Shown here one piece after another: positions 18,446 to 42,911 of a stretch of 64,000 nt of DNA. The DNA is from Roseospira goensis (GTDB lineage: Bacteria; Pseudomonadota; Alphaproteobacteria; Rhodospirillales; Rhodospirillaceae): positions 1 to 64,000 of the forward strand of contig NZ_JACIGI010000009.1 of assembly GCF_014197795.1 (NCBI RefSeq), read 5' to 3'. The position numbers and the translations under genes were made by a program. The notes beneath the pieces were generated by a model that was not told where the DNA came from, made no database searches, and saw nothing but the letters and a program-made list of their open reading frames with translations. Numbering within the stretch: the first letter of the stretch is position 1; each line of letters begins with the position of its first letter.

Positions 18446-18520
18446 CGGGGGCCTGGATCGGGGGGCTGGATCGGGAGCCTGGATCGGGGGCCTGGATCGG
18501 GGGGCTGGATCGGGGGGCTG
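18446..18520. repeat. 13-bp G-rich tandem repeat, five full units plus a partial
   Basis: Five consecutive units of CGGGGG(C/G)CTGGAT (starts 18446, 18459, 18472, 18485, 18498), followed by a truncated unit. Runs of three to six G separated by 7-8 bases would permit, but do not prove, G-quadruplex formation on the plus strand. Confidence 0.8.
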
Positions 18521-27588: not shown

Positions 27589-28719
27589 ATGTTCGGACGC
27601 ACGCTCCGGCTATTCCGCGTCTTCGGCTTCGAGGTGCGGGTCAACGTCAGTTGGGCCTTCCTCGCCATCCTGATCGCCATCTCGCTGGCCCGCGGCTTCT
27701 TTCCCGCGACCTATGCCGGCTGGCCCGCCGCGACCTACTGGTGGATGGCGGCGGCGGGCGTGATCGGGGTGTTCGCCTCCATCGTCATCCACGAGCTGTC
27801 GCATTCCCTGGCCGCGCGCGCCATGGGCATGGAGATGAAGGGCATCACCCTGTTCCTGTTCGGCGGCATGGCGGAGATGGACCAGGAGCCGGCCAGCGCC
27901 AAGGGCGAACTGGTCATGGCGCTGGCCGGCCCCGCCATCAGCCTGGTGCTGGCGGCCCTGCTGCTGGGCCTGGCGGCGTTGGGGCGCGGACCGGAGGGTG
28001 CCGGCCCCGCCGTCGCGGTGATCGACTACCTGGGCTGGCTCAACCTGATCCTGGCGGTCTTCAACCTGATCCCGGCGTTCCCCATGGACGGCGGGCGCGC
28101 CCTGCGGGCCACGCTGTGGGCGATCAGCAAGGACCTGCGCTGGGCGACGCGCTGGGCCTCGCGCATGGGCGCGCTGTTCGGGCTGGCCCTGATCGTCCTG
28201 GGGGTGGTCTCGGCGCTACAGGGCGCCTTCGTCGCCGGGCTGTGGTGGATCCTGATCGGCATGTTCATCCGTGCCGCCGCCTCCGGCAGCTACCAGCAGA
28301 TGGAGATCCGCCGGCTCATGACGGGCGTGCGCGCCGAGGACGTCATGCACCCCCTGACCGAGGCGGTTCCCGCCGACATGACCCTGGCCGCGCTGGTCGA
28401 CCGCTACGTCTACGCCACCCAGCAGCCGGCCTTCCCGGTGGTCGAGGACGGCGGCCTGGTGGGTGTGATCGGGCTGGCGGAGATCCGCACCGTGCCGCGC
28501 GCCGACTGGGAGACGACGCCGGTGCGCGCCGTCATGATCCCGGCCGACCGGGCCGAGATCGTCGCGCCCACCACGGACGCCATGGACGCCGTCGCCAAGC
28601 TCCAGACCCACGCAGTCGACGCCCTGATCGTGGCGGATGGGCACCGGCCGGTGGGGGTGCTGGCGCAAAGCGACGTGCTCAAGCTGCTCAGCCTCAAGAT
28701 GGACCTTGAGGCGCGCTGA
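27589..28719 (+). CDS. M50 site-2 protease-family protein with CBS domain pair
   Basis: A 376-residue multi-pass membrane metalloprotease. The zinc motif HELSH (68-72) and the distal NLIPAFPMDGGR motif with Asp 167 define an active S2P/rhomboid-like intramembrane protease of the SpoIVFB subgroup. Residues from about 245 form two CBS motifs, usually adenosine-nucleotide sensors. The ATG at 27589 is chosen for the FGRTLRLFRVFGFEVRVN start; an upstream in-frame ATG at 27541 adds 16 low-complexity residues. The substrate is unknown. The gene converges with marR and overlaps its 3' end by 26 bases. Confidence 0.88.
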   Translation: MFGRTLRLFRVFGFEVRVNVSWAFLAILIAISLARGFFPATYAGWPAATYWWMAAAGVIGVFASIVIHELSHSLAARAMGMEMKGITLFLFGGMAEMDQEPASAKGELVMALAGPAISLVLAALLLGLAALGRGPEGAGPAVAVIDYLGWLNLILAVFNLIPAFPMDGGRALRATLWAISKDLRWATRWASRMGALFGLALIVLGVVSALQGAFVAGLWWILIGMFIRAAASGSYQQMEIRRLMTGVRAEDVMHPLTEAVPADMTLAALVDRYVYATQQPAFPVVEDGGLVGVIGLAEIRTVPRADWETTPVRAVMIPADRAEIVAPTTDAMDAVAKLQTHAVDALIVADGHRPVGVLAQSDVLKLLSLKMDLEAR

Positions 28720-29248
28720 CGCCCCCCGGTCCGCCCCCTGCCGCGCCGTCCTCCCCCGTCCCCGGGACGCCGGCGCGCGGAACCCTGACGTCCTCTAGGC
28801 GGCGCCCCAACGCCTGCAGCACCTCCAGGGCGTGTTCGAGGTGATCCGGGTCGAGGTCCTGCACCAGCGCGCTGGCCCAGCGCGCGTGCAGCGCCATCGC
28901 CTTGTTGAACGCCGCCGATCCGTACTCGGTCAGGACGTACAGCGGCGACCGCTCGTGGCGGGGGTTGGCCTGCTGGCGGAAATAGCCCTGCTCGACCATC
29001 CGGTTCAGCCGCTTCTGGGCGCCCTGGCGGGTCAGGCCCATGGCTTCCGCGATCATCGGTGTCGTCATCGGCTGTCCGGCCAGGGCCACGGCGCCCAGAA
29101 GCTGCCAGTCGGCGCTGGTCATGCGCAGCGGCCTGACGAGATCATCGCCCTTGTCGAGCAGCTTCCGGCGCAGCCGAAAGATCTCAAGCATGATATCGGT
29201 GAGGAGCAGGTCATTGCTCGTATGGGTATCCGGCACTTTTCTATGCAC
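28694..29248 (-). CDS. MarR-family transcriptional regulator
   Basis: A 184-residue winged-helix regulator. The DNA-binding core (about residues 40-110) reads LRMTSADWQLLGAVALAG, MIAEAMGLTRQGAQKRLNRM, and a wing with RHERSPLYVLT. MarR proteins are usually repressors relieved by phenolics, quinones or other small ligands. It lies 104 bases beyond the end of the polyketide gene set on the same strand, so it is a candidate pathway regulator (inference). The annotated start is GTG with a poor ribosome site; GTG at 29236 or ATG at 29191 are alternatives. The last 25 residues are Gly/Pro-rich and overlap the convergent M50 gene. Confidence 0.88.
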   Translation of the reverse strand: MHRKVPDTHTSNDLLLTDIMLEIFRLRRKLLDKGDDLVRPLRMTSADWQLLGAVALAGQPMTTPMIAEAMGLTRQGAQKRLNRMVEQGYFRQQANPRHERSPLYVLTEYGSAAFNKAMALHARWASALVQDLDPDHLEHALEVLQALGRRLEDVRVPRAGVPGTGEDGAAGGGPGGVSAPQGPS

Positions 29249-29352
29249 TCCATGAGTTTGGCAAGACGCACGGACCTCCCCTTACATCTCCGTTTCCCTC
29301 TCCCCTTACATGGCACGTCACGAACCGTTACCTGACCGGTCTGTCGTAAGCC

Positions 29353-30066
29353 TCAAACGACCAGAGCGTCAATCACGACATAGCTACGCACGGGCTGCGG
29401 ACTCTCCAGGGCGAGGGCGACCGCCCGCTCCCGCCACGGCGCCAGATGGGTGATCCAGCACGGCCCGCCGTCCAGCGGGACCGGCCGGAAGGGGCTCGAC
29501 CCGGCGGGCGGCCCCGGCGCGGTGGACGGGGGGTCGGGCGGCAGCGACAGCGTATCCAGCCCGTGGTTGAGCCCGGTCCCGAGCAGCTTGACCACGGCTT
29601 CCCGGGCGGTCCAGCCGCGCAGGAACGTATCCGGGTCCGGATCCGGCAGCCGCTCCGCCGGCGGCGTGATCCAGGCGTATACAGACCGCCAGCGGGTGGG
29701 ATGGCGCAGGCCCTCGACGTCAAGACCAAGCGGGACCGGCCCCACGGCCAGGGCGAAGACGTGCCGGCTGTGGCTGACGCTGAGATGCACCGGCCGCCCC
29801 CCTGGCCGTCTCGGAACGAAGGGCTTGCCGCGCGGATCCTTGTGGATGCCCAGGCTGGAGTCGCCGGTCACAGCGTGCAGCAGCGTGCGCGCCGTCCGCG
29901 CACTGCGCGGGCGCCAGTCGACGCCCGGGCCGCCGTCGATTACGACCACATGGACGGCGTCGGCGGCCCCGGGCGCGGTGGCCGCGCACGCCAGGGCGGA
30001 CAGCGAGACCGGCTGCCAGGGTGGTGCCGTCCCCGGCGCGGCCGGCCTAGGCCCCCGCCCGGGCAC
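29353..30066 (-). CDS. Sfp-type 4'-phosphopantetheinyl transferase
   Basis: A 237-residue enzyme that loads the phosphopantetheine arm from CoA onto carrier proteins. Family motifs are in order: RGKPF (79-83), HLSVSHS (94-100), the Mg-binding GLDVE (114-118; Asp 116, Glu 118) and WTAREAVVKLLG (152-163; Glu 156, Lys 160). The N-terminal 35 residues are low complexity. Its start lies inside the end of the SDR gene, so it is translated with the polyketide set, where it most likely activates the ACP at 33565-33828. Confidence 0.9.
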   Translation of the reverse strand: MPGRGPRPAAPGTAPPWQPVSLSALACAATAPGAADAVHVVVIDGGPGVDWRPRSARTARTLLHAVTGDSSLGIHKDPRGKPFVPRRPGGRPVHLSVSHSRHVFALAVGPVPLGLDVEGLRHPTRWRSVYAWITPPAERLPDPDPDTFLRGWTAREAVVKLLGTGLNHGLDTLSLPPDPPSTAPGPPAGSSPFRPVPLDGGPCWITHLAPWRERAVALALESPQPVRSYVVIDALVV

Positions 30067-30769
30067 CCTGGGTCGGAGGCCGGCAGCCGATGGCGAGGGT
30101 CTCGACCACCGCTCCCGGCGACAGCCCCATCACGAAGTCCACCGCCCGGCTCAGATCGGCCGGCGCGATCATGTCCTCGGGCGGCATGCCGGAGCCCGCC
30201 CCCATGTCGGTGTCGACCACGTCGGGACACAGCGTGGTCACCCGGATGCCGCGGGGCAGCAACTCGCGCGCCAGCGAGCGCCCGTAGCCGACCAGGGCGT
30301 GCTTGCTGGCGGCATAGCCGCCCACCGGCGCGAACGGCTCCAGGCCGGCGACGGAGGCGATGTTGAAGATGCGGCCGGGCGCGGCCTGCGCCAGCGGCTC
30401 CAGGCAGGCCTGGCACAGGGCATGGATCGCCAGCACGTTGGTGCGCAGGAGGGCCTCCAGGTCGGCGACGGCCAGGGTGCTGGTGCCGAAGTGAAAGATG
30501 CCGGCGGCATTGACCAGCACGTCGAGTCGGCCGCGCCGCGCCACCGCCGCCCGCACCGCGCCGGGGGCGGTGTCGAGGTCGCAGACGTCGACGGGCAGCG
30601 GGTCGGCCGCCCCGCCACCACGCTCGCGCAGATCCGCGGCGGCGGCGGCGAGGCGGGCCTGATCGCGCGCCACCAGGATCAGGTCGAACTGCCGGTCGGC
30701 CAGATGGCGGGCGATTTCCCGCCCGATGCCCCGGCTGGCGCCGGTGACGAGGGCCACGGGTCGCGACAT
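30047..30769 (-). CDS. short-chain dehydrogenase/reductase, likely polyketide tailoring
   Basis: A 240-residue SDR with TGASRGIG cofactor loop (9-16), NAAG (87-90), Ser 139 in NIASVAG, and Tyr 152/Lys 156 in YAASKHA. AAAGGAG precedes the chosen ATG by 7 bases. It differs from the ActIII-like ketoreductase at 36357 and lacks its C-terminal CGGLGNY block, so it is probably a second, later-acting reductase. It lies between the four ABM-fold genes and the phosphopantetheinyl transferase, overlapping the latter by 20 bases. Confidence 0.85.
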   Translation of the reverse strand: MSRPVALVTGASRGIGREIARHLADRQFDLILVARDQARLAAAAADLRERGGGAADPLPVDVCDLDTAPGAVRAAVARRGRLDVLVNAAGIFHFGTSTLAVADLEALLRTNVLAIHALCQACLEPLAQAAPGRIFNIASVAGLEPFAPVGGYAASKHALVGYGRSLARELLPRGIRVTTLCPDVVDTDMGAGSGMPPEDMIAPADLSRAVDFVMGLSPGAVVETLAIGCRPPTQGARAGA

Positions 30770-30802
30770 GGCGCGCTCCTTTCGGGTTTGAGACCAGGTC
30801 AA

Positions 30803-31456
30803 TCAGTCCGCGGCGACGAGGCCGGCGGCGGCCGGGCCTGCCACCCCCGGCGGACCGTCGACGGGGGCCACCACGCGCCGGCACAGCGACGGATGCAGCC
30901 GGTAGGCCAGCGACCGTGCGCGGTGGCGGTCATAGGCGCGGTCGCCCAGGGCGGCCTTGAAGTCGGCGGCGCTGCGCCACTGCGAGACGTTGAGCAGACC
31001 GTAGCGGGCGTGCGGCGAGCGGGCCCGGAACAGGCGCGCGTTCACGAACCCGGCGTGGGCCTCCATGTGGTCCTTGGCCCGGTCCCACATCGCCAGCGCT
31101 CCCGCGATCTCGGCGCCGGCGATCTCGAACGGGTTGACGAGCCAGACGGTGCCGGGGGCCGTCGGCGCCGGCGCGCCAAGCTGGGTGCGCAGCCGCAGCA
31201 CCACCCGCTCCACCGGGCGGCCGGCCACGCTGCCGTCGAGGGCGCCGCCGGCGAGCGCGTCCTCCAGGTCCGGATCCGCCGCCCAGGCGCGCAGCCCCAC
31301 ATAGGCGTAGTGCGCGTCCCGGATGTCCTCGCTGATCTCGAACAGCTCGGCGGCGCAGGGACCGAGCCGGCCGCTCAGGGCTTGGGTCTCCGCCACCCAG
31401 GCGTCGCGCACGGCGGGGTCTGGCGCGCCCAGCACGATGTCGGTCAGGTAGATCAT
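30803..31456 (-). CDS. two-repeat ABM-fold protein 4 of the polyketide cluster
   Basis: A 217-residue protein with two ferredoxin-like ABM (antibiotic biosynthesis monooxygenase) repeats. The second repeat is the clearer: VNPFEIAG, HAGFVNARLFRA, YGLLNVSQWRSAADFKAAL. The first begins IYLTDIVLGAPD. Known cofactor-free ABM oxygenases oxidise aromatic polyketides to quinones; the same fold also hosts cyclases and heme-degrading enzymes. ATGA overlap with the preceding gene. It has no signal peptide. Identity as an oxygenase rests on fold and context. Confidence 0.72.
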   Translation of the reverse strand: MIYLTDIVLGAPDPAVRDAWVAETQALSGRLGPCAAELFEISEDIRDAHYAYVGLRAWAADPDLEDALAGGALDGSVAGRPVERVVLRLRTQLGAPAPTAPGTVWLVNPFEIAGAEIAGALAMWDRAKDHMEAHAGFVNARLFRARSPHARYGLLNVSQWRSAADFKAALGDRAYDRHRARSLAYRLHPSLCRRVVAPVDGPPGVAGPAAAGLVAAD

Positions 31457-32106
31457 GCCGCGTCCCCCATCAGCAGCGACGCCGCGTTGCGGCTCCGGTA
31501 GGCCGTCCGCGTGGTCAGGAACAGGGAGAAATCCTCCTTGAAGGGCGCGACGATCTCGTTGAACCGGTCCGTGTGCACGGCGTCGAAGAACGGGCGCGGC
31601 GAGTCCCACTCGGCGATGTTGACGAACGCGATGGCGTCGTCGGTGTTCCTGTTGCGGAACAGGCTGGCGTTGACGAAACCGGGCTGCGTGCCCATGAAAT
31701 CGGCGGCCTCGTGCCACATGGCGGCGTAGGCGTCGGCCTGGCCGGGTTGGAGGTAGATGACGTCGAGCAACACCAGGTGCGGCGATGCGGTCTGGTAGAC
31801 GTAGGGCCGGCCGTCCACCAGTTCGGTCTTCAGGCTGGTGAAGCGGGTCCCGGACCCGCCGAGCACCGTCGTCACCGCCGGGGTGGCCTTGGCCGCGGCG
31901 CGGGCGGCGTCCCAATCGGCCTCGCTGTCCCACTGGCAGATGCTGGCGAGGGCGTAGTCCGCGCGGGCCTGCACGGTCTGGAAGGTCTCGACGAGCTGGC
32001 CGTCGCGGAAACCGGGCCGCTGCGACAGGAAGCCGCTGACGGCGCACCAGGTCTCCTTGGCCCGCGTGCGGTCCTCGGTCTCCAGGAAATCAATGACCAT
32101 CATCAT
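31453..32106 (-). CDS. two-repeat ABM-fold protein 3 of the polyketide cluster
   Basis: A 217-residue protein with two ABM repeats: the first with VIDFLETEDRTRAKETW and RPGFRDGQLVETF, the second with LLDVIYLQPGQADAYAAMW, QPGFVNASLFRN and AFVNIAEWDSPRPFFDAV. Both repeats show the strand-helix pattern of quinone-forming ABM oxygenases such as ActVA-Orf6, which is a single-repeat homodimer; a two-repeat protein would place both halves in one chain. The start is the first of three consecutive ATG codons, overlapping the preceding stop as ATGA. Confidence 0.75.
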   Translation of the reverse strand: MMMVIDFLETEDRTRAKETWCAVSGFLSQRPGFRDGQLVETFQTVQARADYALASICQWDSEADWDAARAAAKATPAVTTVLGGSGTRFTSLKTELVDGRPYVYQTASPHLVLLDVIYLQPGQADAYAAMWHEAADFMGTQPGFVNASLFRNRNTDDAIAFVNIAEWDSPRPFFDAVHTDRFNEIVAPFKEDFSLFLTTRTAYRSRNAASLLMGDAA

Positions 32107-32798
32107 GACGACACCCCTTCGGTGGCGAGGGAGAGGGAGAGGGACGGCGCGGGCGCGGGTGCGTCGGCGCCCCCGGGGATGGCCGGGGCGGCCGGGTCGG
32201 GAACGTCGTCCGCGACGCGCGAGAAGCAGATCTGGAAGGTGCCCTCGTAGGGGGCGACCAGGGCCTTGTAGTCCTGGCCGGCGAACTGGCGCAGGAAGTC
32301 GGCCTCGGTGCGCCAGCGCGCCCGGCTGACGAAGTAGTAGGCGTCGGCGTCCGGGTGGAAGCTCTGGAACAGCTCGGCGTCCAGGAAGCCCTCGCGCGTC
32401 TGCATCAGCGTCTTGGTGGCGGCCCACATGCGGGCGTTCTCGGCCGCCGCGCCGCGGTCGATGCGGTAGGGGTTGGTGACCACGATCTGCTCGGCCTCGA
32501 CCGGCTGCGCACACGGCGGACTGGCGTCCACGCGGCCGTAAAGATTGACTCCGGGCGGCGTCTCGGGGCCGAAGGGGCGCCGGTGCAGGGCGTCCTCGGC
32601 GCCGTGATAGGCGGCCAGGCTGTCCCACCGGCTGAGGCCGACCAGGGCGTAGCCCGTCCGGTTGAGACGGCGGTAGACCCGCAGCAGGCGGGCGCCGCGG
32701 AAGCCGGGCATGCCGGCCGCCGCCCGCAGGGCGCGCCCCCACAGGCGCGCCGCCGGCCCCGCGTCGGGTGTCTCCAGGATGTCGATACGGGCGATCAT
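32103..32798 (-). CDS. two-repeat ABM-fold protein 2 of the polyketide cluster
   Basis: A 231-residue protein with two ABM repeats: IARIDILETPDAG with MPGFRGARLLRVY, then IVVTNPYRIDRG with REGFLDAELFQSF and YYFVSRARWRTEADF. A low-complexity Ala/Pro/Ser tail of about 30 residues follows. The ATG at 32798 shares a base with the preceding stop (TGATG); GTG at 32801 would add one residue. Function inferred as oxidative tailoring from fold and position. Confidence 0.72.
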   Translation of the reverse strand: MIARIDILETPDAGPAARLWGRALRAAAGMPGFRGARLLRVYRRLNRTGYALVGLSRWDSLAAYHGAEDALHRRPFGPETPPGVNLYGRVDASPPCAQPVEAEQIVVTNPYRIDRGAAAENARMWAATKTLMQTREGFLDAELFQSFHPDADAYYFVSRARWRTEADFLRQFAGQDYKALVAPYEGTFQICFSRVADDVPDPAAPAIPGGADAPAPAPSLSLSLATEGVSS

Positions 32799-33412
32799 CA
32801 CGCAGCCTCCCGATCCTCGACGGCGGGGACACGGGCGACCATGATGCGGCTGCGGGCCTCGAACCCGCCCACCAGGATGCGTTTGAACGCCTCGCTGGAG
32901 AACGCCCGCACGAACGGCCGCAGGCCGGTCCAGGCGGCGACGTTGACAAAGGTCGCCCCCGCCTCCTCCTCGGCGGACTCCGCCCGGTACAGGCGGGTGA
33001 GGCAGAACCCGGGTTGCTCGGCCATGAAGGCGCTGGCGGTGGTGAACTGTGCCAGGAAGGCGTCGGCATCCGGGGCCGCCAGTTCGCTCAGGATCAGCAT
33101 GACCACGCCGGCGGCGGGGGCCTGGGGCGCGGTCCAGGTCCGCCCCTGGGTGCGCATCGCGCGCCGGGTCCGCAGCACCAGGGTGGGGCGGACGCCCTTG
33201 GGGCCGGGCAGCGGGGCGCTGCCGTCGATGCCGGCATCGAGGGTGACGTAGCCGAACCGGCCGCCGCCGTAGCCGCGACGATCGAAGGCGTCGGCGTCGG
33301 CGGGCGACAGTGGCAGCGCGAGGCGTCCGCCGCGCCCGCTGATGCGGCGCAGGATGGGCCAGCCCGGCAGGTCGTCGGGGGCGCGGTCGTAGAACATGAA
33401 GGTGTGCAGCAT
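32798..33412 (-). CDS. ABM-fold protein 1 of the polyketide cluster
   Basis: A 204-residue protein. The C-terminal half is a recognisable ABM repeat (VVMLILSELAAPDADAFL, QPGFCLTRLYRA, TFVNVAAWTGLRPFVRAF). The N-terminal half (MLHTFMFYDRAPDDL...) is diverged and its fold is uncertain, though position suggests a decayed first repeat. GGAGG lies 5 bases before the ATG. It follows the ACP gene by a 152-base gap, the only sizeable gap in the set, so a secondary promoter is possible here. Confidence 0.7.
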   Translation of the reverse strand: MLHTFMFYDRAPDDLPGWPILRRISGRGGRLALPLSPADADAFDRRGYGGGRFGYVTLDAGIDGSAPLPGPKGVRPTLVLRTRRAMRTQGRTWTAPQAPAAGVVMLILSELAAPDADAFLAQFTTASAFMAEQPGFCLTRLYRAESAEEEAGATFVNVAAWTGLRPFVRAFSSEAFKRILVGGFEARSRIMVARVPAVEDREAA

Positions 33413-33564
33413 GAGGACCTCCCTGGTGGTCGCCGCGCGCGCGGGCGCGGCGGGGACCGGACCCGCGTCTCCGGGTCGAGCGCGGGCGGACTGTCCGGAC
33501 CCGGCGCCGCTTCTGCGTCGGCGATCCGGGACCGTCCGTGGGCCGGCGAAGCGGCGCGTGGGGC

Positions 33565-33828
33565 TCAGGCGGGCTCCGCCACCCGCAGCCGGGCGAGGGT
33601 CGCCGCGACCAGATCCGCCGGGGTCTTCAGCCCGGCGTAGTCGACGCCCTTGAGGCTGACCTGCAAGGCGGTCTCGATGTCGACGATGATCCCGATCAGC
33701 TCGGTCGAATCGATGCCCAGGTCGTCCTCGAACGCGGTGTCGGGCTGGATGGTGGCGGGGTCCACGCTGATGGACTCGGCGATGGCCTCAATGACGACGG
33801 CATGAACACGGTCGGTGGTGCTGGTCAT
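33565..33828 (-). CDS. acyl carrier protein of the type II polyketide synthase
   Basis: An 87-residue ACP. The phosphopantetheine site is Ser 41 in DLGIDSTEL, with the acidic helix II recognised by partner enzymes. The sequence departs from the FabG/FabF-linked fatty-acid ACP type (DSLDTVELVM), as expected for a dedicated polyketide carrier. It follows the chain-length-factor gene by 13 bases and has its own GGGAGA ribosome site. Confidence 0.9.
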   Translation of the reverse strand: MTSTTDRVHAVVIEAIAESISVDPATIQPDTAFEDDLGIDSTELIGIIVDIETALQVSLKGVDYAGLKTPADLVAATLARLRVAEPA

Positions 33829-33841
33829 CTCAGGTCTCCCT

Positions 33842-35002
33842 TCAGGTCTCTTTGGTGAGCACGAGGCTGCCCGCGCCGCCGCCCATGGCGCAGGCGTTGA
33901 TCAGGACCCGCTCGATCGTGGCGGGGGTTGCGTCGGGGGCGGCGAACGGGGGGGCGGAATCGTCGGGCGCGGTCCCGGGCAGCGACCGCTGGCGGTGCAG
34001 CATCAGGCTGGCGAAGGCCACGTCGAGCGCCCCTTCGGCCCCGAAGGCGTGGCCGTAGCGGTCCTTGGGGCGCAGCGTCGGCACGCCGGGGCAGACCGCC
34101 GCCAGCGCCGCCTGCTCGCAGGCGTCGACCCGCGCCAGCCCGCTGGCGTCGGGCAGCACGATGTCCGCCTTCATGTTGCCGAGCACCCGGCGCATGGTGC
34201 CTTGCAGGGTGTCGGGGTCGGTGCCGTACTGGTCCGGCCCGCAGGGCGCGTTGCGCATGGCGAACGCCTGCACCCGCGCGTAGACCCTGGCGCCGCGCGC
34301 CCGGGCGTGGGCGGCATCCTCCAGGATTAGGAACACCGCGCCCTCCGACACCGCGAACCCGCTGTCGTGCGGGGCCGGCTCGCCGTTGGCGGCGGCGACG
34401 TGCTCCAGCGCGGCGCGCACGAAGTCGGTGTTGGTGCTCTCGGCGCCACCGGCGATGGCGACGTCGAGTTGGCCCTGGCGGATCTGGCGCGCGGCCGCGG
34501 CCACGCTAACCAGGCTGCTCATGCGGTCGGCCATGTAGGTCTTGCTGAACCCCTTGAGGCCGTGGACGATCGTGATCTGCCCCTGCGGTGCGGCCGGGAA
34601 CCAGCTCGTGGCCTGGAACGGGCTGACGCTGCGCGGCCCCTGGGTGTGCAGGTGGCGCAGTTCGCGCTCGGTGAAGCGCCAGCCGCCGAAGCAGTTGCCG
34701 ACGAAGGCGCCGCAGCGGGTGCGGTCGATGGCGGCCAGGTCCAGGCCGGCGTCCGCGATGGCCGACTGCGTGGCCACCAGGGCGTAGACGGTGAACACGT
34801 CCAGCTTGCGGGCCAGCCGCGGCGGCAGGGCGTTGTCCAGAACGGTCTCGTCGATGCGGCTGCCGTGCAGGCGCGGCGACAGGCGTTCGACGGTCGGGGC
34901 GCGGCCATGGCCCGGGGCGGTGCCGTGAGCCCACAGGTCCTCGACGGTCCGGGTCTTCGGCAGCACAACGCCGATGCCGGTGATGACGACGTCACGGGTC
35001 AT
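33842..35002 (-). CDS. chain-length-factor-like ketosynthase (KS-beta)
   Basis: A 386-residue ketosynthase homologue with the thiolase fold. Aligned to the neighbouring KS, the active-site Cys is replaced by Arg 160 in TYMADRMSSLVSVA, and the first catalytic His motif (NAHG) reads DASG, while the second (YGHAFGAEGA) is kept. Loss of the Cys next to an intact KS is the hallmark of a chain length factor, which pairs with KS-alpha and sets polyketide length. Its Arg substitution is unusual since classical factors carry Gln. ATGA overlap with KS-alpha means equimolar translation. Confidence 0.85.
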   Translation of the reverse strand: MTRDVVITGIGVVLPKTRTVEDLWAHGTAPGHGRAPTVERLSPRLHGSRIDETVLDNALPPRLARKLDVFTVYALVATQSAIADAGLDLAAIDRTRCGAFVGNCFGGWRFTERELRHLHTQGPRSVSPFQATSWFPAAPQGQITIVHGLKGFSKTYMADRMSSLVSVAAAARQIRQGQLDVAIAGGAESTNTDFVRAALEHVAAANGEPAPHDSGFAVSEGAVFLILEDAAHARARGARVYARVQAFAMRNAPCGPDQYGTDPDTLQGTMRRVLGNMKADIVLPDASGLARVDACEQAALAAVCPGVPTLRPKDRYGHAFGAEGALDVAFASLMLHRQRSLPGTAPDDSAPPFAAPDATPATIERVLINACAMGGGAGSLVLTKET

Positions 35003-36309
35003 GCGACGCGAGCCTCCTCGGAATGGGGATGGGAACCGGACGCGGCCGGGTCGTAGCGGGCGACGATCAGGGCGCTGTGGATGCCGGAGAACCCGCTGGC
35101 GTCCTTCAGGGCGACGTCGATGCGGGCCTGGCGCGGCCCGTCCGGCACATAGTCCAGGTCGCAGCGCGGATCGGGGTCGACCAGGTTGCTGGTGGGCGGC
35201 GTTTCCTGGTGCACGATGGATTGCACCAGCGCGACCACCTCGACCGTGTTGGCCGCCGCCAGGGCGTGCCCGACGATGGACTTCAGCGAGCAGATCGGGA
35301 TCTCGTGCGCCCGCGGACCCAGGGTGCGCTTGACCGCGTTGGTCTCGTTGACATCGTTCTGCGGCGTCGAGCTGCCGTGCGCGTTGACATGGTCGATGCG
35401 CTCGGGGGCGATCCCGGCGTCCGTCAGCGCCAGCCGCATGGCCCGGTGCAGGTCCAGGCCCTCGGGCAGCAGGTCGGTCATGTGATAGGCGTTGCAGGTG
35501 GAGCCGAAGCCGGTCAGTTCCACCAGGATGGGGGCACCGCGCCGGCGGGCGTGCTCCAGGTCCTCCAGCACCAGGATGCCGCAGCCCTCGGCCAGCACGA
35601 ACCCGGACCGGGAGGCGTCGTAGGGCCGCGAGGCGGTCTCCGGCGTGTCGTTGCGGTCGCTGGTGATGGCGCCGATGATGTCGAAGGCGCCCATGGCGAT
35701 GGGGGTCAGTGGGGCCTCGGCGGCGCCGGCGATGACCACGTCGGCCTCGCCGGCGCGGATCATCTCCATGGCCTCGCCGAGCGCGTCCAGGCCGGCGGTG
35801 CAGCCTGTCGCCAGGGTGCTGACCGGGCCGCGCGCGCCGTAGGTCCGGGCAATCTCCGACGAGGCGACGTGGAAGCAGGTCCCGGGCAGCAGCGCCGGGT
35901 CCGAGCGGGTGGCGTCGAGCGGCGCCGTGGCCCCGTCGGTCAGGCGCAGGAATGCCTCTTCCATGTACTTGGTGCCGGCGATGGCGGTGGCCACGCTGAC
36001 ACCGAGACGGTCCGGGTCGCAGCCCCCGTCGGCCAGGCCGGCACGGCCCATGGCCTCGGCGGCGGCGGCCAGGGCGAACTGGGCGAAGCGGTCCAGGCCG
36101 CGCGCCTCGGCGTCCTCCAGGCCATGGTCCTCGGGGCGGAAGTCGCGGACCACGCCGGCGACCTGCGACTGGAAGCCGGCGACGTCGAAGGTGTCGATCC
36201 GGAACACGCCGCTCCGGCCCAGGCGGGTGTTCTCCCAGAAGGTGTCCACATCGGTGCCGGTGGGGGCGATGACCCCCAGGCCGGTCACCACGATTCTCCG
36301 CGTGCTCAT
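34999..36309 (-). CDS. type II polyketide ketosynthase (KS-alpha)
   Basis: A 436-residue condensing enzyme. Catalytic Cys 170 in LATGCTAGLDALGEAM, His 311 in VNAHGSSTPQND and His 348 in IVGHALAAAN are all present. It extends the malonyl-derived chain on the ACP as a heterodimer with the chain length factor. The ATG at 36309 is preceded by GGGAG and gives the canonical MSTRRIVVTGLGVIAP start. FabF of fatty acid synthesis is related, but the partner genes (chain length factor, aromatase/cyclase, ActIII-like reductase) argue for polyketide use. Confidence 0.9.
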   Translation of the reverse strand: MSTRRIVVTGLGVIAPTGTDVDTFWENTRLGRSGVFRIDTFDVAGFQSQVAGVVRDFRPEDHGLEDAEARGLDRFAQFALAAAAEAMGRAGLADGGCDPDRLGVSVATAIAGTKYMEEAFLRLTDGATAPLDATRSDPALLPGTCFHVASSEIARTYGARGPVSTLATGCTAGLDALGEAMEMIRAGEADVVIAGAAEAPLTPIAMGAFDIIGAITSDRNDTPETASRPYDASRSGFVLAEGCGILVLEDLEHARRRGAPILVELTGFGSTCNAYHMTDLLPEGLDLHRAMRLALTDAGIAPERIDHVNAHGSSTPQNDVNETNAVKRTLGPRAHEIPICSLKSIVGHALAAANTVEVVALVQSIVHQETPPTSNLVDPDPRCDLDYVPDGPRQARIDVALKDASGFSGIHSALIVARYDPAASGSHPHSEEARVA

Positions 36310-36356
36310 GATGCTGTGCTCCCGAGTGGGTCGCGGGTGTCCTGGCGACGGGGGGA

Positions 36357-37127
36357 TCAGTAGTTGCCCAGGCCGCCGCAGACGTTCATGGCCTGAGCGG
36401 TGACGCCGCGGGCGTGGTCGGAGGCCAGGTAGGACACCATGGCGGCGACCTCGTCCGGCTCGATGTAGCGGCCGATGGGCACCCGGGCCTCGATGCGGCT
36501 CTTCGCCACCTCCGGGGTCACGTCCCAGATCTTGGCGTAGTTGCGCCTTACCTGCTGGGCCATCTCGGTCTCGACGAAGCCGGGGCAGACGGCGTTGACC
36601 GTGATGTCCGAGCCGTCGCGGGCCAGTTCCAGGCCGAGCGCCTTGGTGAACCCGACCACGCCGTGCTTGGAGGCACTGTAGGGTGCGCCGTGCACGACCC
36701 CCTGTTTGCCACCGGTGCTGGCGATGTTGATGACCGCGCCGCCGCTGCCCATGGCCTCGGACTGCAACACCGCCTTGGTGACGTAGAAGACCGCGTTCAG
36801 GTTGGTCTCGATCACGTCGCGCCACAGGTCGTCGGCGATGGTCTTGGTGACGCCGCCGCCGCTGCGGCCGGCGCAATTGACCAGCACGTCGATGGAGCCG
36901 AGAGCCTCGCGCGCCTGCTGCACCAGGGCGGCGACCGCCTCGGGCTGGGTGACGTCGCAGGTCAGGCCGACGACGGTGACGTCCGGGCGCGACAGCGCCG
37001 CGACGGTCTCCTGGAGCCGGTCCGGGTCGCGCGCCACCAGCACGCAGTTGAAGCCGTCGGCGACGAGGCGGGCGGCGATGGACTTGCCGATGCCGCGGCT
37101 GGCGCCGGTGATGAGGGCGTTACGCAT
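36357..37127 (-). CDS. ActIII-like polyketide C9 ketoreductase
   Basis: A 256-residue SDR closely resembling the actinorhodin ketoreductase ActIII from memory: NIASTGGKQGVVH, PYSASKHGVVGFTKALGLEL, ITVNAVCPGFVETEM, RVPIGRYIEPDEVA and the terminal NVCGGLGNY. Catalytic Ser 137, Tyr 150 and Lys 154 are in place. The PGG motif that steers hydride delivery in ActIII reads SGG here (residues 89-91). It should reduce one ketone, usually C9, of the nascent chain with NADPH. Its start overlaps the aromatase/cyclase gene by 8 bases. Confidence 0.92.
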   Translation of the reverse strand: MRNALITGASRGIGKSIAARLVADGFNCVLVARDPDRLQETVAALSRPDVTVVGLTCDVTQPEAVAALVQQAREALGSIDVLVNCAGRSGGGVTKTIADDLWRDVIETNLNAVFYVTKAVLQSEAMGSGGAVINIASTGGKQGVVHGAPYSASKHGVVGFTKALGLELARDGSDITVNAVCPGFVETEMAQQVRRNYAKIWDVTPEVAKSRIEARVPIGRYIEPDEVAAMVSYLASDHARGVTAQAMNVCGGLGNY

Positions 37128-38046
37128 GATCGGGTCCCCCCAGTTTGGCGGCGATGGCCTGCATGGTGCCCAGGCTGTTGCGGTTGATGGCGGTCTCGAC
37201 GGTGTGCTTGGCCTCCTCCGGGTCCTTGCCGGCCCAGAACGCGGGGCTCAACACCACCTCGTGCCAGGAGACGACCTCGGTGCCGGCCTCGGTCTCGGTC
37301 ACGGTCCAGCGACCGCGGTGCTCGGTGAGCGCGGGCGGCGGGGCGGGCTGGAAGTAGTCGATGCGGTCGGCGGAGACGATGCGCACGCTGCGGATACGCT
37401 CCTCGGTCTCGCCGACCTGCACCACCATCACGAACTCCTGGTAGGTGCCGTCGTCGTACAGCACCTCCATGCCGGTGCAGTGCGGCAGCAGCCAGGGCCA
37501 GCACGCGGCGTCGCGCAACAGGCGAAACACCAGCGCGGCCGGCTGCGTGAGGACCAGGGACTCTGCGAAGGCGTGGCGCCAGCGCTCGCGCTCCAGGCGG
37601 GCGGCGACGGCGGCCAGCTCCTTGCGGCTGTTGGTTTCCACCGACCGCATCATGAAGTCGGCGGCTTCTTCGCGGGTGGTCACCCCCTCCACGATCCCGG
37701 CGACGCTGTCGGCGATCTCGAAGTCGTGGGTCAGGGTGATGGTGCAGCCGGCGTCCGAGGGCTCGAAGCGCCAGGTGCCCTTCATGAACTGCACCAGAGG
37801 CGACGGCTTGCTCTGCGCGAAGCTGATGCGGCGGTTGTCGCGGTCGATGGCGCGTTCGGACTCCCAGCTCAGCACGGCGTCGTTGGCGCGCGCGGTCAGC
37901 GCGATCTTCTGCCGGGTGTCGGTTTCCTCCAGGACCCGGGCGGCCAGGCAGGGCGGGAAAATCTCCGGCCAGCGGCTGACGTCCAGCCCGACCCGGAAGG
38001 CCGGGTCCGCGGGGCAGGCGACGTCGATGGAGTGGTCAGTCTTCAT
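37120..38046 (-). CDS. didomain aromatase/cyclase (SRPBCC/START fold)
   Basis: A 308-residue protein with two START-like helix-grip repeats, about residues 1-150 (VSRWPEIFPPCLAARVLEE; WRFEPSDAGCTITLTHDFE) and 155-300 (AACWPWLLPHCTGMEVLYDD; WTVTETEAGTEVVSWHEVV). Didomain aromatase/cyclases act in pathways whose chain is first reduced at C9, dehydrating and aromatising the first ring, which fits the adjacent ActIII-like reductase. First gene of the polyketide operon; upstream is the 556-bp divergent region shared with an efflux operon. Confidence 0.88.
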   Translation of the reverse strand: MKTDHSIDVACPADPAFRVGLDVSRWPEIFPPCLAARVLEETDTRQKIALTARANDAVLSWESERAIDRDNRRISFAQSKPSPLVQFMKGTWRFEPSDAGCTITLTHDFEIADSVAGIVEGVTTREEAADFMMRSVETNSRKELAAVAARLERERWRHAFAESLVLTQPAALVFRLLRDAACWPWLLPHCTGMEVLYDDGTYQEFVMVVQVGETEERIRSVRIVSADRIDYFQPAPPPALTEHRGRWTVTETEAGTEVVSWHEVVLSPAFWAGKDPEEAKHTVETAINRNSLGTMQAIAAKLGGPDHA

Positions 38047-38602
38047 GGCAATGGGGCCTCTGTGACGGGGGATGCGGTCGATGAAACGGGCGCGGCACCG
38101 GGCGGGGGAGCGGGACGCGCTCTGGCGCGGACGAGCCGGGCGGTCGGGGTGGTGTGGGGGTCATGGTTGCCTCCGAGGGGTCGGCCGCGCGCCAGGGGTC
38201 GGGGCCGCGACGCGGCCACCGGTCTCGGTCGCTGTAATTCTCCAGCAGGAAGTAGGGGCTTTGGGTCGCACGCCGACGGTCGGCAGACGACACCTCCCCG
38301 TGCGGACCGGCCGTTCTGGCGCAGGTCCCCGCCGCGATGTCACGCGGGTCCGTGAGGGATGACCGGTGCTTGGCGACGGGCCTCACACCGGATCCGCGGT
38401 CTTGTTTCCGTGACAACCGGTTGCTATTCTGACAACCAGTTGCCATCCAGGAAACGAGTTACCAGATTGGCGCCGTGCGTTCAACCCGAAAAATAAGCGC
38501 GCATGAGTTGTCGCAAACGCGACACACCGGGACCCTGGCCCGCCGCCGCGCCCTTCCGTCGCCGCCGGCGCCGCCGTGCGCCACGAACCCGAGGAGCGTC
38601 CG
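38047..38602. other. 556-bp divergent region between polyketide and efflux operons
   Basis: Holds the paired palindromic operators at 38402-38442. The 350 bases next to the aromatase/cyclase gene are GC-rich with no recognised promoter or gene; the minus-strand operon may start from within the operator region or nearer, which cannot be decided from sequence. Confidence 0.5.
38402..38442 (+). promoter_or_regulatory. promoter with two palindromic operators, upstream of efflux operon
   Basis: CAACCGGTTG (38414-38423, perfect palindrome) and CAACCAGTTG (38433-38442, one central mismatch) are direct copies spaced 19 bases apart, each preceded by TGA. A candidate plus-strand promoter, TTGTTT (38402-38407), 17 bases, TATTCT (38425-38430), has one operator between -35 and -10 and the other just after -10. 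This is a repressor layout; a MarR or TetR protein is the likely binder, with the MarR at 28694 a candidate. Confidence 0.6.
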
Positions 38603-39736
38603 ATGCGACCGTCCCCCGCCGCCCTGCTGCTTGTCCTCTCGCTCGCGACCGCACCGCCGCTGGCCGGATGCCAGACCGAGGCCGCCTCCCAGGCCGCCCG
38701 CCCGTCCGCCCACACGGCGGCGCCGACGGACCGCGACCGGGCCGCGCGGCCCGTGCTGGTGACGCAGGTGCGCTACGAGGCACCGGTCACCGAACGCCGC
38801 TTCGTCGGCACGGTAAGCCCGCGACTCGAAAGCGATCACGGCTTCCGGGTCGCCGGGCGCGTGGCGCGCCGCCCGGTCGACGTCGGCGACAGGGTCACGG
38901 CCGGGGCGCCGCTGGCCACCCTGGACGACACCGACCTGCGTCTGCGACTCGAGCAGGCCGAGGCCGAGGCGCGCGCCGCCCGCAGCGCCCTGAGCCTGGC
39001 CGAATCGGAACGCCGCCGGGCCGAGTCGCTGCACCGGCGCGGCGTCAACGCCGAGTCGGTCCTGGACGCCCGCCGCGCCGCCGCCGACGAGGCCGCGGGC
39101 CGGCTCGCCCGGGCCGAACGCGCCGTCGCCCTGGCCCGCAATGCCCTGGACTACGCCGTGCTGCGCGCCGACGTCGCCGGCGTGGTCACCGCCGTGCTGG
39201 TCGAACCGGGCCAGGTGGTGGCGGTGGGACAACCCGCCATCCGCGTCGCCGGCACGGCGGAGACCGAGGCCCTGGTCGCCCTGCCCGAACGGTTCGTGGC
39301 CCAGGCCCGGGCCGGCGCGGCGCGGGTGTCGCTGTGGGCCGATCCCGACCGCACCTACCAGGCCCGGTTGCGGGAGCTGGCCCCCGCCGCCGACCCCCTG
39401 ACCCGCACCTATGACGCGCGCTTCAGCATTCTGGACCCCGACCCGAACGTGCGACTCGGCATGACGGTGACCGTGACCGTGCGCGCCAACGACGGCGGCC
39501 CAGTCGCCCGTCTGCCGCTGGCCGCGCTGCGCGACGACGGCGACGGGCCGGCGGTGTTCGTGGTCGACCGCGCCGCCGGCACCCTGAGCCGGCAGCCGGT
39601 CGCGGTGGTGGCCTACGAGGGCGAGGCCGCCGTGCTGGGCGGCGGCGTGGCGACGGGCGACTGGGTGGTCGCCCTCGGCACCCAGAAGCTCGACGCCGCA
39701 CAGACCGTGCGCGTCGTCGACACCCTCTCGTTCTAG
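38603..39736 (+). CDS. RND efflux periplasmic adaptor lipoprotein
   Basis: A 377-residue membrane fusion protein. The N-terminus is a lipoprotein signal ending LAGC (Cys 23). Barrel-sandwich hybrid, a long alpha-hairpin (about 105-175, rich in Ala/Glu/Arg) and beta-barrel regions follow; ADVAGVVTAVLVEPGQVV is the second lipoyl half. It links the inner-membrane pump to an outer-membrane channel, whose gene is not adjacent. GAGGAG precedes the ATG. First gene of the operon divergent from the polyketide cluster. Confidence 0.9.
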   Translation: MRPSPAALLLVLSLATAPPLAGCQTEAASQAARPSAHTAAPTDRDRAARPVLVTQVRYEAPVTERRFVGTVSPRLESDHGFRVAGRVARRPVDVGDRVTAGAPLATLDDTDLRLRLEQAEAEARAARSALSLAESERRRAESLHRRGVNAESVLDARRAAADEAAGRLARAERAVALARNALDYAVLRADVAGVVTAVLVEPGQVVAVGQPAIRVAGTAETEALVALPERFVAQARAGAARVSLWADPDRTYQARLRELAPAADPLTRTYDARFSILDPDPNVRLGMTVTVTVRANDGGPVARLPLAALRDDGDGPAVFVVDRAAGTLSRQPVAVVAYEGEAAVLGGGVATGDWVVALGTQKLDAAQTVRVVDTLSF

Positions 39737-39746
39737 GGGACGCGCG

Positions 39747-42700
39747 ATGGACGGGGGCAGCCCTCACCAGCAGGCCACGGGACCCGGCAACCTCTCGGCG
39801 TGGGCGGTGCGCCACCCGGCGCTGATCCTGTTCCTGGTCCTGGTGATCGCGATCGGCGGGACCATCGCCTTCCTGGGCCTGGGCCGGGCCGAGGACCCGG
39901 GCTTCACCATCAAGGTCGCCAACGTCACCGCCCGCTGGCCCGGCGCCACCGCCGCCGAGATGCAGGCCCAGGTGGCGGACCGGATGGAAACCCGCCTGCA
40001 ACAACTCGCCTGGTTCGAGTCGGTGACCACCTACAGTCAGCCCGGGTTCACCGCCCTGCAGGTCGAGTTCCGCGACAGCATGCCGCCGCGCGCCTTGCCG
40101 GAGCTGTTCCACCAGCTCCGCAAGACGCTGCGCGACCTCAAGCCCGACCTGCCGGACGGGGTGATCGGCCCCGCGGTCAACGACGAGTTCGGCGACGTCG
40201 ATTCGATCCTGTACGCCATCACCGGCGCGGGCACCGACTACGCCGCCCTGAAGGACGTCGCCAAGAGCCTGCGCCAGGCCCTCCTCGGGCTGCCCGACGT
40301 GCGCAAGGTCACCCTGTACGGCAATCAGGACGAGCGCATCTTTGTCGAGTTCAGCCACGCCCGGCTCGCCACGCTGGGCCTGTCGGCCGCCGACCTGTTC
40401 GGGTCGCTGGCGGATCAGAACGCCGTCGCCCCCGCCGGTATCGTCGAGACCACGGCCCAGCGCGTGCCGCTGCGCGTCTCCGGCGCCTTCGACGGCGCCC
40501 GCGCCGTGGCCGAGACGCCGGTCGCCGCCGGCGGCCGCGTCTTCCGCATCGGCGACGTCGCCACCGTCACGCGCGGCTTCGAGGACCCGCCGCGCCACCT
40601 GGTGCGGGTCGGCGGGGCGCCGGCCCTGCTGCTCGGCGTCGTGATGGAGTCGGGCGGCAACATCCTAGCCCTGGGGGAGGCGGCGGACGCCCTGATGGCC
40701 GAGATGGCGGCCGCGATTCCCGTCGGCATCGACGTGACCAAGATCGCCGACCAGCCCCGGGTGGTCGACCACGCGCTGGGCGAGTTCTTCAAGGTCTTCG
40801 CGGAGGCGCTGGCGATCGTGCTGGCGGTCAGTTTCCTGACCCTGGGGGTGCGCACCGGCGTCGTGGTGGCGCTGTCGGTGCCGGTGGTGCTGGCGCTCAC
40901 CTTCATCGGCATGGCGATGCTGGGTCTGGACCTGCACCGCATCACCCTGGGGGCGCTCATCATCGCCCTCGGCCTGCTGGTCGACGACGCCATCATCGCG
41001 GTCGAGATGATGGTGGTGAAGATGGAGGAGGGCTGGAGCCGCGTCGCCGCCGCCGGCTACGCCTGGACCTCGACCGCGTTTCCCATGCTGACCGGGACCC
41101 TGGTCACCGCCATCGGCTTCCTGCCGATCGGGTTCGCGAACTCGGCGGTGGGCGAGTACGCCGGCGGCATCTTCTGGGTGGTCGGCCTCGCCCTGATGGC
41201 GAGCTGGCTGGTGGCCGTCGTGGTCACCCCGTACCTGGGGGTCAGGCTGCTGCCCAGCTTCGCCGGCCGCCAGCAGCGGCACGGCGGCGATCCCTACGCC
41301 ACCCGGCCCTATCGCCTGCTGGCCGCCGTGGTGGCCTGGTGTGTGCGCCGCCGCCTGGTGGTGGTGATCGTCACGGTCGCCCTGTTCGCCGCGGCGCTGG
41401 TCGGCTTCGGGCAGGTCTCGCGCCAGTTCTTCCCGCTGTCGGAACGCCCGGAGCTGTTCGTGGACCTGCGCCTCCCGGAGGGCACGGCCATCGACGTCAC
41501 CGCCGCCGTCGCGCGCGAGGCCGAGTCGCTGCTGGCCGGCGACCCGGACATCGCCACCGCCACCACCACGATCGGCGCCGGGCCGCCCCGCTTCTGGCTC
41601 GGGCTCAACCCGGAGCTGCCGAACCCCGCCTTTGCGCAGATCATTATCGTGGCCAAGGGCGTGGCCGCGCGCGAACGCGTCAAGGCCCGCCTGGAGGCGG
41701 CCCTGGCGGACGGCGCCCTGACCCGCGCCCGGGTGCGGGTGCACCGCTTCAAGTACGGGCCGCCGGTGGGCTTCCCGGTCGAGTTCCGCGTCATGGGGCC
41801 GGATGCCATGGCGGCCCGCCGCATCGCCCGTGCGGTGCAGGACGTGATGCGCGCCGACCCACGGCTGGTGGACCCGCACCTGGACTGGAGCGAACGCCTG
41901 CCCGTGGTGGTGCTGGACGTGGACCAGGCGCGCGCCCGCGCGCTCGGGCTGAACACCGCCGACGTCGCCCGCACCCTCAACACCCTGGTCTCGGGGGTCG
42001 CGGTCACCACGGTGCGCGACGGCACCGAGCCGGTGGCGGTGGTCGCACGCGCGGTGCCGAACGAACGCGTCGACCTGGCGCACCTGGGCGACCTGACCAT
42101 CCCGACCCGGGCAGGGCCGGTGCCCCTGACCCAGGTGGCCCGCCTGGACTACGAGGCCGAAGAGGCGATCCTGCGCCGGCGCAACCAGGACATCACCATC
42201 ACCGTCCGCGCTGACGTGGTCGACGGCGTCCAGCCCCCCGACGTGACGATGGACCTGTGGCCGCGTCTGGCGGGCATCCGCGCCGCCCTGCCGCCCGGCT
42301 TCCACATCGAGAAAGGCGGCGCGATCGAGGAATCGGCCAAGGGCAACGCCTCCATCGTGGCCCTGTTCCCGGCGATGATCCTCGGCATGCTCACCGTTCT
42401 GATGGTCCAGGTGCAGAGCTTTGCACGCCTGCTGCTGGTGGTGCTGACGGCCCCGCTGGGGATCATAGGGGCGGTGCTGGCGCTGCTGCTGGCGGACCGG
42501 CCGTTCGGATTCGTGGCCCTGCTGGGGCTGATCGCGCTGGCCGGCATGATCATGCGCAACGCCGTCATCCTGGTGGACTGGATCGAGGCCGACGTGCGCC
42601 AGACCGGCCAACCGCTGGCCCACGCCATCGTGCACGCGACGGTGCGGCGCGCCCGACCGGTGGTCCTGACCGCGCTGGCCGCCATCCTGGCCATGATCCC

Positions 42701-42911
42701 GCTCAGCACCTCCGCGTTCTGGGGACCGATGGCGACCACCATCATGGGCGGGCTGTTTGGCGCGACCTTCCTGACGCTTCTGTTCGTGCCCGCCCTGTAT
42801 GCGCTGGTCTTCAGCCGCCGCATCCGGCGCGAGCGGACCGCGACCAGCCGGGCCCGGCGCGGCGGCGCGCACGGGGTCGCGGCGCCGCAGCCGGCCGGAG
42901 GGCCGCCATGA
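39747..42911 (+). CDS. RND-type multidrug efflux pump permease (HAE1 family)
   Basis: A 1054-residue, 12-helix proton-driven exporter. The proton-relay acidic pair Asp 413/Asp 414 lies in GLLVDDAIIAVEM of helix 4, and the two large periplasmic porter loops follow helices 1 and 7 in the usual order. The sequence fits the AcrB-related group with short cytosolic C-terminus. It follows its adaptor by 10 bases. Because it is divergent from the polyketide genes it may export that product (inference). Confidence 0.95.
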   Translation: MDGGSPHQQATGPGNLSAWAVRHPALILFLVLVIAIGGTIAFLGLGRAEDPGFTIKVANVTARWPGATAAEMQAQVADRMETRLQQLAWFESVTTYSQPGFTALQVEFRDSMPPRALPELFHQLRKTLRDLKPDLPDGVIGPAVNDEFGDVDSILYAITGAGTDYAALKDVAKSLRQALLGLPDVRKVTLYGNQDERIFVEFSHARLATLGLSAADLFGSLADQNAVAPAGIVETTAQRVPLRVSGAFDGARAVAETPVAAGGRVFRIGDVATVTRGFEDPPRHLVRVGGAPALLLGVVMESGGNILALGEAADALMAEMAAAIPVGIDVTKIADQPRVVDHALGEFFKVFAEALAIVLAVSFLTLGVRTGVVVALSVPVVLALTFIGMAMLGLDLHRITLGALIIALGLLVDDAIIAVEMMVVKMEEGWSRVAAAGYAWTSTAFPMLTGTLVTAIGFLPIGFANSAVGEYAGGIFWVVGLALMASWLVAVVVTPYLGVRLLPSFAGRQQRHGGDPYATRPYRLLAAVVAWCVRRRLVVVIVTVALFAAALVGFGQVSRQFFPLSERPELFVDLRLPEGTAIDVTAAVAREAESLLAGDPDIATATTTIGAGPPRFWLGLNPELPNPAFAQIIIVAKGVAARERVKARLEAALADGALTRARVRVHRFKYGPPVGFPVEFRVMGPDAMAARRIARAVQDVMRADPRLVDPHLDWSERLPVVVLDVDQARARALGLNTADVARTLNTLVSGVAVTTVRDGTEPVAVVARAVPNERVDLAHLGDLTIPTRAGPVPLTQVARLDYEAEEAILRRRNQDITITVRADVVDGVQPPDVTMDLWPRLAGIRAALPPGFHIEKGGAIEESAKGNASIVALFPAMILGMLTVLMVQVQSFARLLLVVLTAPLGIIGAVLALLLADRPFGFVALLGLIALAGMIMRNAVILVDWIEADVRQTGQPLAHAIVHATVRRARPVVLTALAAILAMIPLSTSAFWGPMATTIMGGLFGATFLTLLFVPALYALVFSRRIRRERTATSRARRGGAHGVAAPQPAGGPP

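Follow-up and report, generated by a model that had tools for sequence, protein, structure and literature searches.

The window analysed here, the first 64 kb (64,000 nucleotides) of contig 9 (138,309 bases) in the 4.18-Mb draft genome of Roseospira goensis, contains what is probably a functional and complete-looking operon for a reducing type II (aromatic) polyketide synthase (PKS), including proposed oxidation steps by ABM-fold proteins. The cluster comprises 11 intact genes, all on the minus strand, between positions 29353 and 38046 (8.7 kb). In the order of transcription, these encode a didomain aromatase/cyclase (ARO/CYC), a ketoreductase (KR), a ketosynthase alpha (KS), a chain-length factor (CLF), an acyl carrier protein (ACP), four ABM proteins (ABM1 to ABM4), a second reductase of the SDR family, and a phosphopantetheinyl transferase (PPTase). 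The most likely product, as predicted from the genes, is a C9-reduced aromatic polyketide oxidised by the ABM enzymes, and a quinone would be plausible because ABM proteins are present. All genes named in an earlier note on this DNA are found in place, with open frames and Pfam domain matches. Its description of them as nearly all coupled by overlaps of 1–20 bases was too strong: overlaps occur at six of the ten junctions (8, 4, 1, 4, 4, and 20 bases) and gaps at four (47, 13, 152, and 33 bases).

Polyketide synthase core and its conservation

The KS retains the Cys, His, and His residues of the active site in the motifs TGCTAG, NAHGSS, and VGHAL. In the CLF, the cysteine column is occupied by an arginine (R160) that is invariant across 40 aligned CLFs, taken from 206 search matches. 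The ACP is a discrete protein with the phosphopantetheine serine in the motif GIDSTE. CLF-like proteins from Nitrospirae/Nitrospiria metagenome-assembled genomes (MAGs; L026–L032 and L034) have Ile, Val, or Ser at the cysteine column, in contrast to the proteobacterial Arg.

The best PDB match of the KS is chain B of 6smo (9.7e-114), with FabF (1j3n) and the actinorhodin KS ranking behind, and that of the CLF is chain C (2.6e-39) of the same entry, which we take to be the Photorhabdus AntD/AntE complex. Many FabFs lie close behind this CLF match, and a profile of the 40 CLFs ranks FabFs in the PDB above the actinorhodin (act) CLF, so that similarity ranking alone cannot decide the identity of the protein. 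The top NCBIfam model of the CLF is FabF, at 159 bits against a cut-off of 493.75. A further ketoacyl-synthase gene (142.5 bits; L003, L074) is located at 74421–75131 of contig 9, outside the window and ~38 kb from the cluster.

A tree of 72 rows includes the window pair, 24 KSs and 24 CLFs from 24 of the 55 loci of the CLF scan, 13 of the 206 protein-search matches, six FabFs, and three aryl-polyene proteins; 31 loci and 193 matches are omitted. The 25 labelled CLFs, the window CLF among them, fall together to the same side of a single branch (99/100, and 98% in 200 bootstraps). Twelve Gram-negative type II KSs, Photorhabdus and Pyxidicoccus among them, form a set that includes the window KS (93/95, just under the tool's star), and a set of eight with Zooshikella also contains it (99/98). 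The six FabF rows form a set of their own (100/100), with the window KS and CLF outside. The KSs overall do not form one group, as two changes are needed and a single group appears in 42% of bootstraps. Neither window protein joins the three aryl-polyene rows, which are very long branches of unsure placement. The claim that KS and CLF are a type II PKS pair without firm grouping with FabF is supported by the position of the CLF in the CLF clade and the separation of the FabF rows.

The best PDB matches of the KR are the actinorhodin KR ActIII (1e-86) and another entry named 'keto reductase' (1.6e-76), followed by the first match not named as a polyketide KR at 4e-46 and by FabG-like matches from 6e-43. 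For the ARO/CYC, the best match is BexL (1.5e-31, residues 3–295), presumably from an angucycline-type pathway; StfQ and TcmN match too. These closest relatives support the prediction of C9 reduction made from the KR and the didomain ARO/CYC. The PPTase is 51–53% identical to its counterparts in R. visakhapatnamensis and a Rhodospira MAG. No acyltransferase is found within the cluster, and the only match to this family (PF00698) in the genome is located on contig 10 near FabF, which fits the proposal that FabD would be shared.

Relatives of all 11 proteins are observed in the same order in the alphaproteobacterium R. visakhapatnamensis (L017), the Rhodospira MAG (L016), and Paraburkholderia caffeinitolerans (L018). 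In the Rhodospira MAG, the ARO/CYC is broken by the contig end and resumes on another contig. In an Enterobacterales MAG (L019), ABM1 was missed by tblastn, and an open frame at 11364–11930 aligns and groups with ABM1. The cluster of Pseudoalteromonas luteoviolacea (L020) is split between the strands: the core and the PPTase lie together, ABM1-ABM2-ABM3-ABM4-SDR are encoded opposite, and a MarR gene separates the two blocks; tblastn shows the same layout at two further loci of this species (L023 and L024). The gene set is conserved in five further lineages, which supports the reading of the earlier note. Because gene order and proteins are kept across three proteobacterial classes, the cluster is not a chance arrangement. 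Core genes in common with the window cluster are found in Zooshikella, Pyxidicoccus, and a gammaproteobacterial MAG, with no ABM3 match in these genomes; Zooshikella carries an AMP-binding ligase and a hydrolase. In P. caffeinitolerans, a second KS-type gene lies on the opposite strand ~2 kb past the cassette (17134–18477).

Within the genus Roseospira, CLF and ABM3 are found together in three of seven genomes and are both absent from the other four, in which the CLF search gave only FabF-like matches of 29–32%. The ARO/CYC occurs at 74–100% in the same three genomes, with partial matches of 25–29% in two others. Among 385 sampled alphaproteobacterial genomes, the CLF is found at E ≤ 1e-45 in one, the window's own. 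Of 195 genomes of the Pyxidicoccus phylum, 95 match at E ≤ 1e-70, four at 58–60% and the rest at 33–42%, the latter being taken, unsorted, as FabF-like. The CLF locus scan used two peptide patterns and misses CLFs that lack them, probably including some act-like ones, so the distribution is a lower bound. The patchy occurrence and distant recurrence of the cassette suggest spread by horizontal transfer.

ABM proteins, proposed pathway, and alternative readings

The four ABM proteins have a length of 204–231 residues, a two-domain size. ABM3 (37.9 bits) and ABM2 (33.6) score above the Pfam ABM cut-off of 23.1, and ABM1 (20.8) and ABM4 (18.6) below it; PF03992 is matched at E ≤ 1 by 23 of 24 ABM proteins. 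Profiles built from the orthologues of ABM1 and ABM4 match SnoaB and other ABM oxygenases, while the ABM2 profile matches 2ril (2e-9), its lysozyme matches at E 0.09–0.4 being noise. The AlphaFold models of ABM3 and ABM4 are two-domain ABM folds (ferredoxin-like α+β barrel), and we infer from length and homology that ABM1 and ABM2 are also two-domain proteins. The best full-length fold matches of the two models are PenE and 5f9p ('anthrone oxidase-like'), the latter presumably AlpJ or kin; SnoaB matches one domain. The monomeric oxygenase AlpJ is described in the literature as similar to ActVA-Orf6, a dimer (PMC11181247). Identity to these structures is 12–22% over the aligned parts. By sequence, 5f9p matches the ABM proteins at a negligible E of 0.38, and the likeness is one of fold. 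Pfam scores, orthologue profiles, and models together uphold the earlier assignment of four ABM-fold proteins.

The Asn and Trp of an Asn-x3-Trp motif are catalytic in cofactor-free anthrone oxygenases. This motif is kept in every aligned row of ABM1 (6/6), ABM3 (7/7), and ABM4 (6/6) and is visible in alignments with ABM oxygenases, and the N63A mutant of SnoaB is among the structure matches. In ABM2, a Ser replaces the Asn. In the ABM tree, which omits L023 and L024, each of the four families is set apart by a branch with 98–100% bootstrap support; ABM1 and ABM4 of L023 are missing from the alignment. Judged from sequence, ABM1–ABM4 are four orthologous families common to alpha-, beta-, and gammaproteobacteria.

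Two single proteins extend this picture. An Azospirillum (alphaproteobacterium) protein (P0137, 208 residues) is ABM4-like, at 46%. Corallococcus sp. BB11-1 has an ABM3 relative (P0124, 54–57% identity), which the tree joins to the Roseospira ABM3 (100/99) and not to that of Paraburkholderia or Pseudoalteromonas, a placement that hints at transfer to or from myxobacteria. A search for ABM3 in 96 genomes of the Pyxidicoccus fallax family, including the four with the nearest CLFs (58–60% to the Polyangium CLF), gave no match and had no positive control; yet the Corallococcus protein exists.

In the proposed pathway, the Sfp-type transferase would arm the ACP, FabD would supply malonyl loading, and KS/CLF would build a poly-β-ketone. 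The KR would reduce C9, and the didomain ARO/CYC would close and aromatise the first ring (C7–C12), with later rings closing spontaneously or with help from one ABM protein. ABM1, ABM3, and ABM4, with Asn-x3-Trp as in anthrone-oxygenase-type ABMs, may then insert O2-derived oxygen, yielding a quinone or a more highly oxidised ring, and ABM2, lacking the Asn, may perform a different step. The second SDR could reduce a late ketone, and the MarR repressor encoded next to the operon probably senses the product.

Several observations weigh against a functional operon for an oxidised, C9-reduced aromatic. By similarity alone, the CLF is almost as near to FabF as to known CLFs. With act CLF numbering and pocket roles as we presume them, the pocket residues F109, T112, F116, and F133 are W, T, L, and T here, giving no clear chain length, and the Gln position of the act CLF is an Arg. 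The PPTase scores 27.8 bits for ACPS, barely over the Pfam cut-off of 25. None of the 11 genes encodes a recognised second-ring cyclase, a starter ligase such as AntG, or a thioesterase/hydrolase such as AntI. In the ABM alignment, inspected by eye, the Asn motif is missing from the N-terminal halves, and sulfur oxygenase reductases match the ABM3 and ABM4 models nearly as well as polyketide oxygenases do. A scan of 28600–38700 for sigma-70-type promoters found none (0.4 expected). We know of no product of this cluster.

It is possible, though we consider it unlikely, that the didomain ABM proteins perform AlpJ/JadG-like oxidative ring cleavage and rearrangement, leading to a ring-opened or contracted skeleton. 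The didomain architecture, the fold in common with PenE and 5f9p, and the nearness of the ARO/CYC to BexL would agree with this. Furthermore, AlpJ-family enzymes are described as cleaving C–C bonds (PMC11181247), and the ABM proteins LugOIII and LugOV as participants in epoxidation and ring-C cleavage (PMC10728087). The negligible sequence similarity to 5f9p argues against such a role, and a common fold proves no function.

It is rather improbable that the ABM proteins are mainly later-ring cyclases, similar to TcmI or FasU, with a reduced aromatic product and no enzymatic quinone formation. The polyketide cyclase FasU is among the ABM-fold matches. The conserved Asn-x3-Trp of three families and the anthrone oxidase-like and PenE folds speak against a cyclase-only function, but both roles may coexist: because the ABM fold also occurs in FasU, the ABM proteins may share cyclase and oxygenase jobs. 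No match to cupin, zinc-cyclase, or TcmI-type (PF04673) families was found at E ≤ 0.001 among the 10 proteins scanned.

A silent or decaying relic, to which the patchy occurrence in the genus (3/7) could point, is very unlikely, given the intact frames, the kept active-site residues, and the maintenance of the gene set in distant hosts. In the eight genes other than KS, ABM3, and ABM4, third-position G+C is 0.87–0.96, as in neighbouring genes. An origin of KS and CLF in fatty-acid or aryl-polyene synthesis, favoured by the NCBIfam and profile rankings of the CLF, is rejected as scarcely credible on the basis of the tree, the didomain ARO/CYC, the ActIII-like KR, and the absence of dehydratase and acyltransferase genes among the eleven.

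Gene coordinates, regulator, and flanking genes

The base composition of the cluster resembles that of the remainder of the window. A longer KS open frame reaching 36876 is not the gene, which is the shorter frame listed in Table 1.

Table 1. Genes of the putative PKS operon and its neighbours in the window
Feature	Positions	Strand	Evidence
Didomain ARO/CYC, 308 aa	37120..38046	-	Two Polyketide_cyc stretches (Pfam); BexL best PDB match
ActIII-type KR, 256 aa	36357..37127	-	adh_short; actinorhodin KR best PDB match
KS, 436 aa	34999..36309	-	ketoacyl-synt; Cys-His-His; 6smo_B best PDB match; tree
CLF, 386 aa	33842..35002	-	ketoacyl-synt; Arg in place of Cys; tree
ACP, 87 aa	33565..33828	-	PP-binding 2.2e-10; Ser in GIDSTE
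ABM1, two-domain size, 204 aa	32798..33412	-	Profile nearest SnoaB
ABM2, two-domain size, 231 aa (232 from upstream GTG)	32103..32798	-	Ser replaces Asn in N-x3-W motif
ABM3, didomain ABM protein, 217 aa	31453..32106	-	Pfam ABM 37.9 bits; model
ABM4, didomain ABM protein, 217 aa	30803..31456	-	Under Pfam cut-off; model
Second SDR reductase, 240 aa	30047..30769	-	adh_short 9.7e-48; kept in cassette
Sfp-type PPTase, start uncertain	29353..30066	-	ACPS 27.8 bits
MarR-family regulator, next gene downstream	28694..29248	-	MarR_2 1.8e-11
RND membrane-fusion protein, divergent neighbour, outside conserved set	38576..39736	+	
RND pump, divergent neighbour	39747..42911	+	ACR_tran
Small membrane protein, 148 aa	42995..43441	+	phrog_32130 3e-40 (unknown function); no Pfam or NCBIfam match

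The MarR gene has relatives in the same place in the Rhodospira MAG and R. visakhapatnamensis (77 and 72% identical, respectively) and is the probable regulator of the cluster. Two almost perfect palindromes, which read GCAACCGGTTGT and GCAACTGGTTGT on the minus strand, lie at 38413 and 38432, 19 bases apart, and span 38413–38443. They are operator-like and fall within the promoter region that separates the cyclase operon from the divergent RND pump. Among 10 other loci scanned, no such pair was found, save one inside L023 that lies in its KS region. When up to two mismatches are allowed, the motif occurs 10 times in the window against 6.85 expected, with no over-representation. A shared MarR operator was rejected, as the palindromes are not found in the promoters of the related loci scanned.

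The RND pump is 28–35% identical to the pumps at L016 and L017, and its best relatives in other genera reach 53%. It was rejected as a conserved exporter, not being close kin of the pumps beside related clusters. The small membrane protein is found near the cassette in six lineages: the window, where it is ~5 kb off, past the RND genes, L016–L019, and P. luteoviolacea (L020, L023, and L024). It is present in all seven Roseospira genomes, including the four without the cluster (4/4), and the total among relatives is 12 of 61; it was therefore rejected as a twelfth pathway gene.

Significance and comparison with known systems

The products of type II PKSs include important antibiotics and anticancer agents, and the pathways studied are mostly actinobacterial. 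We offer tentatively, as less likely than not, the wider idea that aromatic polyketide pathways of this kind in Gram-negatives make up a mobile family of their own. This family would be defined by an ancient ABM1–ABM4 set of didomain enzymes acting as a sequential O2-using cascade, including C–C cleavage, toward an unisolated class of skeletons. It would have been passed on as one block between alpha-, beta-, and gammaproteobacteria and, to some extent, myxobacteria. The four paralogous ABM enzymes provide a natural comparison in which the division of labour could be read gene by gene. The 8.7-kb operon is small enough to be cloned whole, and the KS/CLF of the relative in P. luteoviolacea is reported to be soluble in E. 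coli (PMC6638757).

The earlier note's view that such clusters have few Gram-negative cases is out of date, as CLFs from 14 phyla, alphaproteobacteria included, were catalogued in 2023 (PMC10132072). In the open-access PMC literature (subscription papers being outside its scope), we found nothing on Roseospira polyketides, on type II PKSs with Paraburkholderia and Pseudoalteromonas, or on type II polyketides or anthraquinones of Corallococcus. Among the matches listed there for ABM, type II polyketide, and CLF, as titles and abstract starts, none describes the cassette. The type II PKS core is thus of a known kind; what seems new is the conservation of a set of four ABM proteins and how far this set has spread.

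The Photorhabdus ant PKS provides the nearest KS/CLF pair in the PDB (6smo chains B and C), and its KS falls in one Gram-negative set with that of the window (93/95). Similar to the window cluster, it has an ActIII-like KR and its own PPTase, AntB (PMC6638757). In contrast, its CLF is only 28–30% identical to the window CLF, and the ligase AntG, without which activity falls 13-fold (PMC6638757), is absent from the window cluster. None of ABM1–ABM4 has a match at 10 Photorhabdus loci; one ABM-like frame of 133 residues (28%) lies away from the PKS locus in one genome searched.

The PluA/B cluster of P. luteoviolacea, called characterised in a later paper (PMC10132072), has all eleven genes, with KS 60–61% and CLF 41–42% identical to those of the window. 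Unlike the window cluster, it is arranged in two divergent blocks, with ABM1–ABM4 and the SDR on the opposite strand.

In myxobacteria, the aggregicyclin (acy) and pyxidicycline (pcy) systems are compact Gram-negative clusters of KS, CLF, ACP, KR, cyclase, and monooxygenase genes, and the aggregicyclins exemplify the chemistry possible in such hosts (PMC13213394). The acy cluster differs, as described there, in its several separate cyclases and three monooxygenases. The locus of Pyxidicoccus fallax (L025) shares 45% identity with the window in ARO, 58% in KR, 55% in KS, and 41% in CLF.

The AlpJ/PenE-like oxygenases and SnoaB resemble the window ABM proteins in their didomain (5f9p, PenE) or single-domain (SnoaB) fold and in the Asn-x3-Trp motif, kept in three of the four. 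They differ in sequence, at the low identity given above. With the actinorhodin-type PKSs of actinomycetes, the window cluster has in common the KR, the KS/CLF logic, and the didomain ARO/CYC, and it is set apart from them by the Arg of its CLF in place of the act Gln, by four ABM proteins of two-domain size, and by its compact set of only eleven genes.

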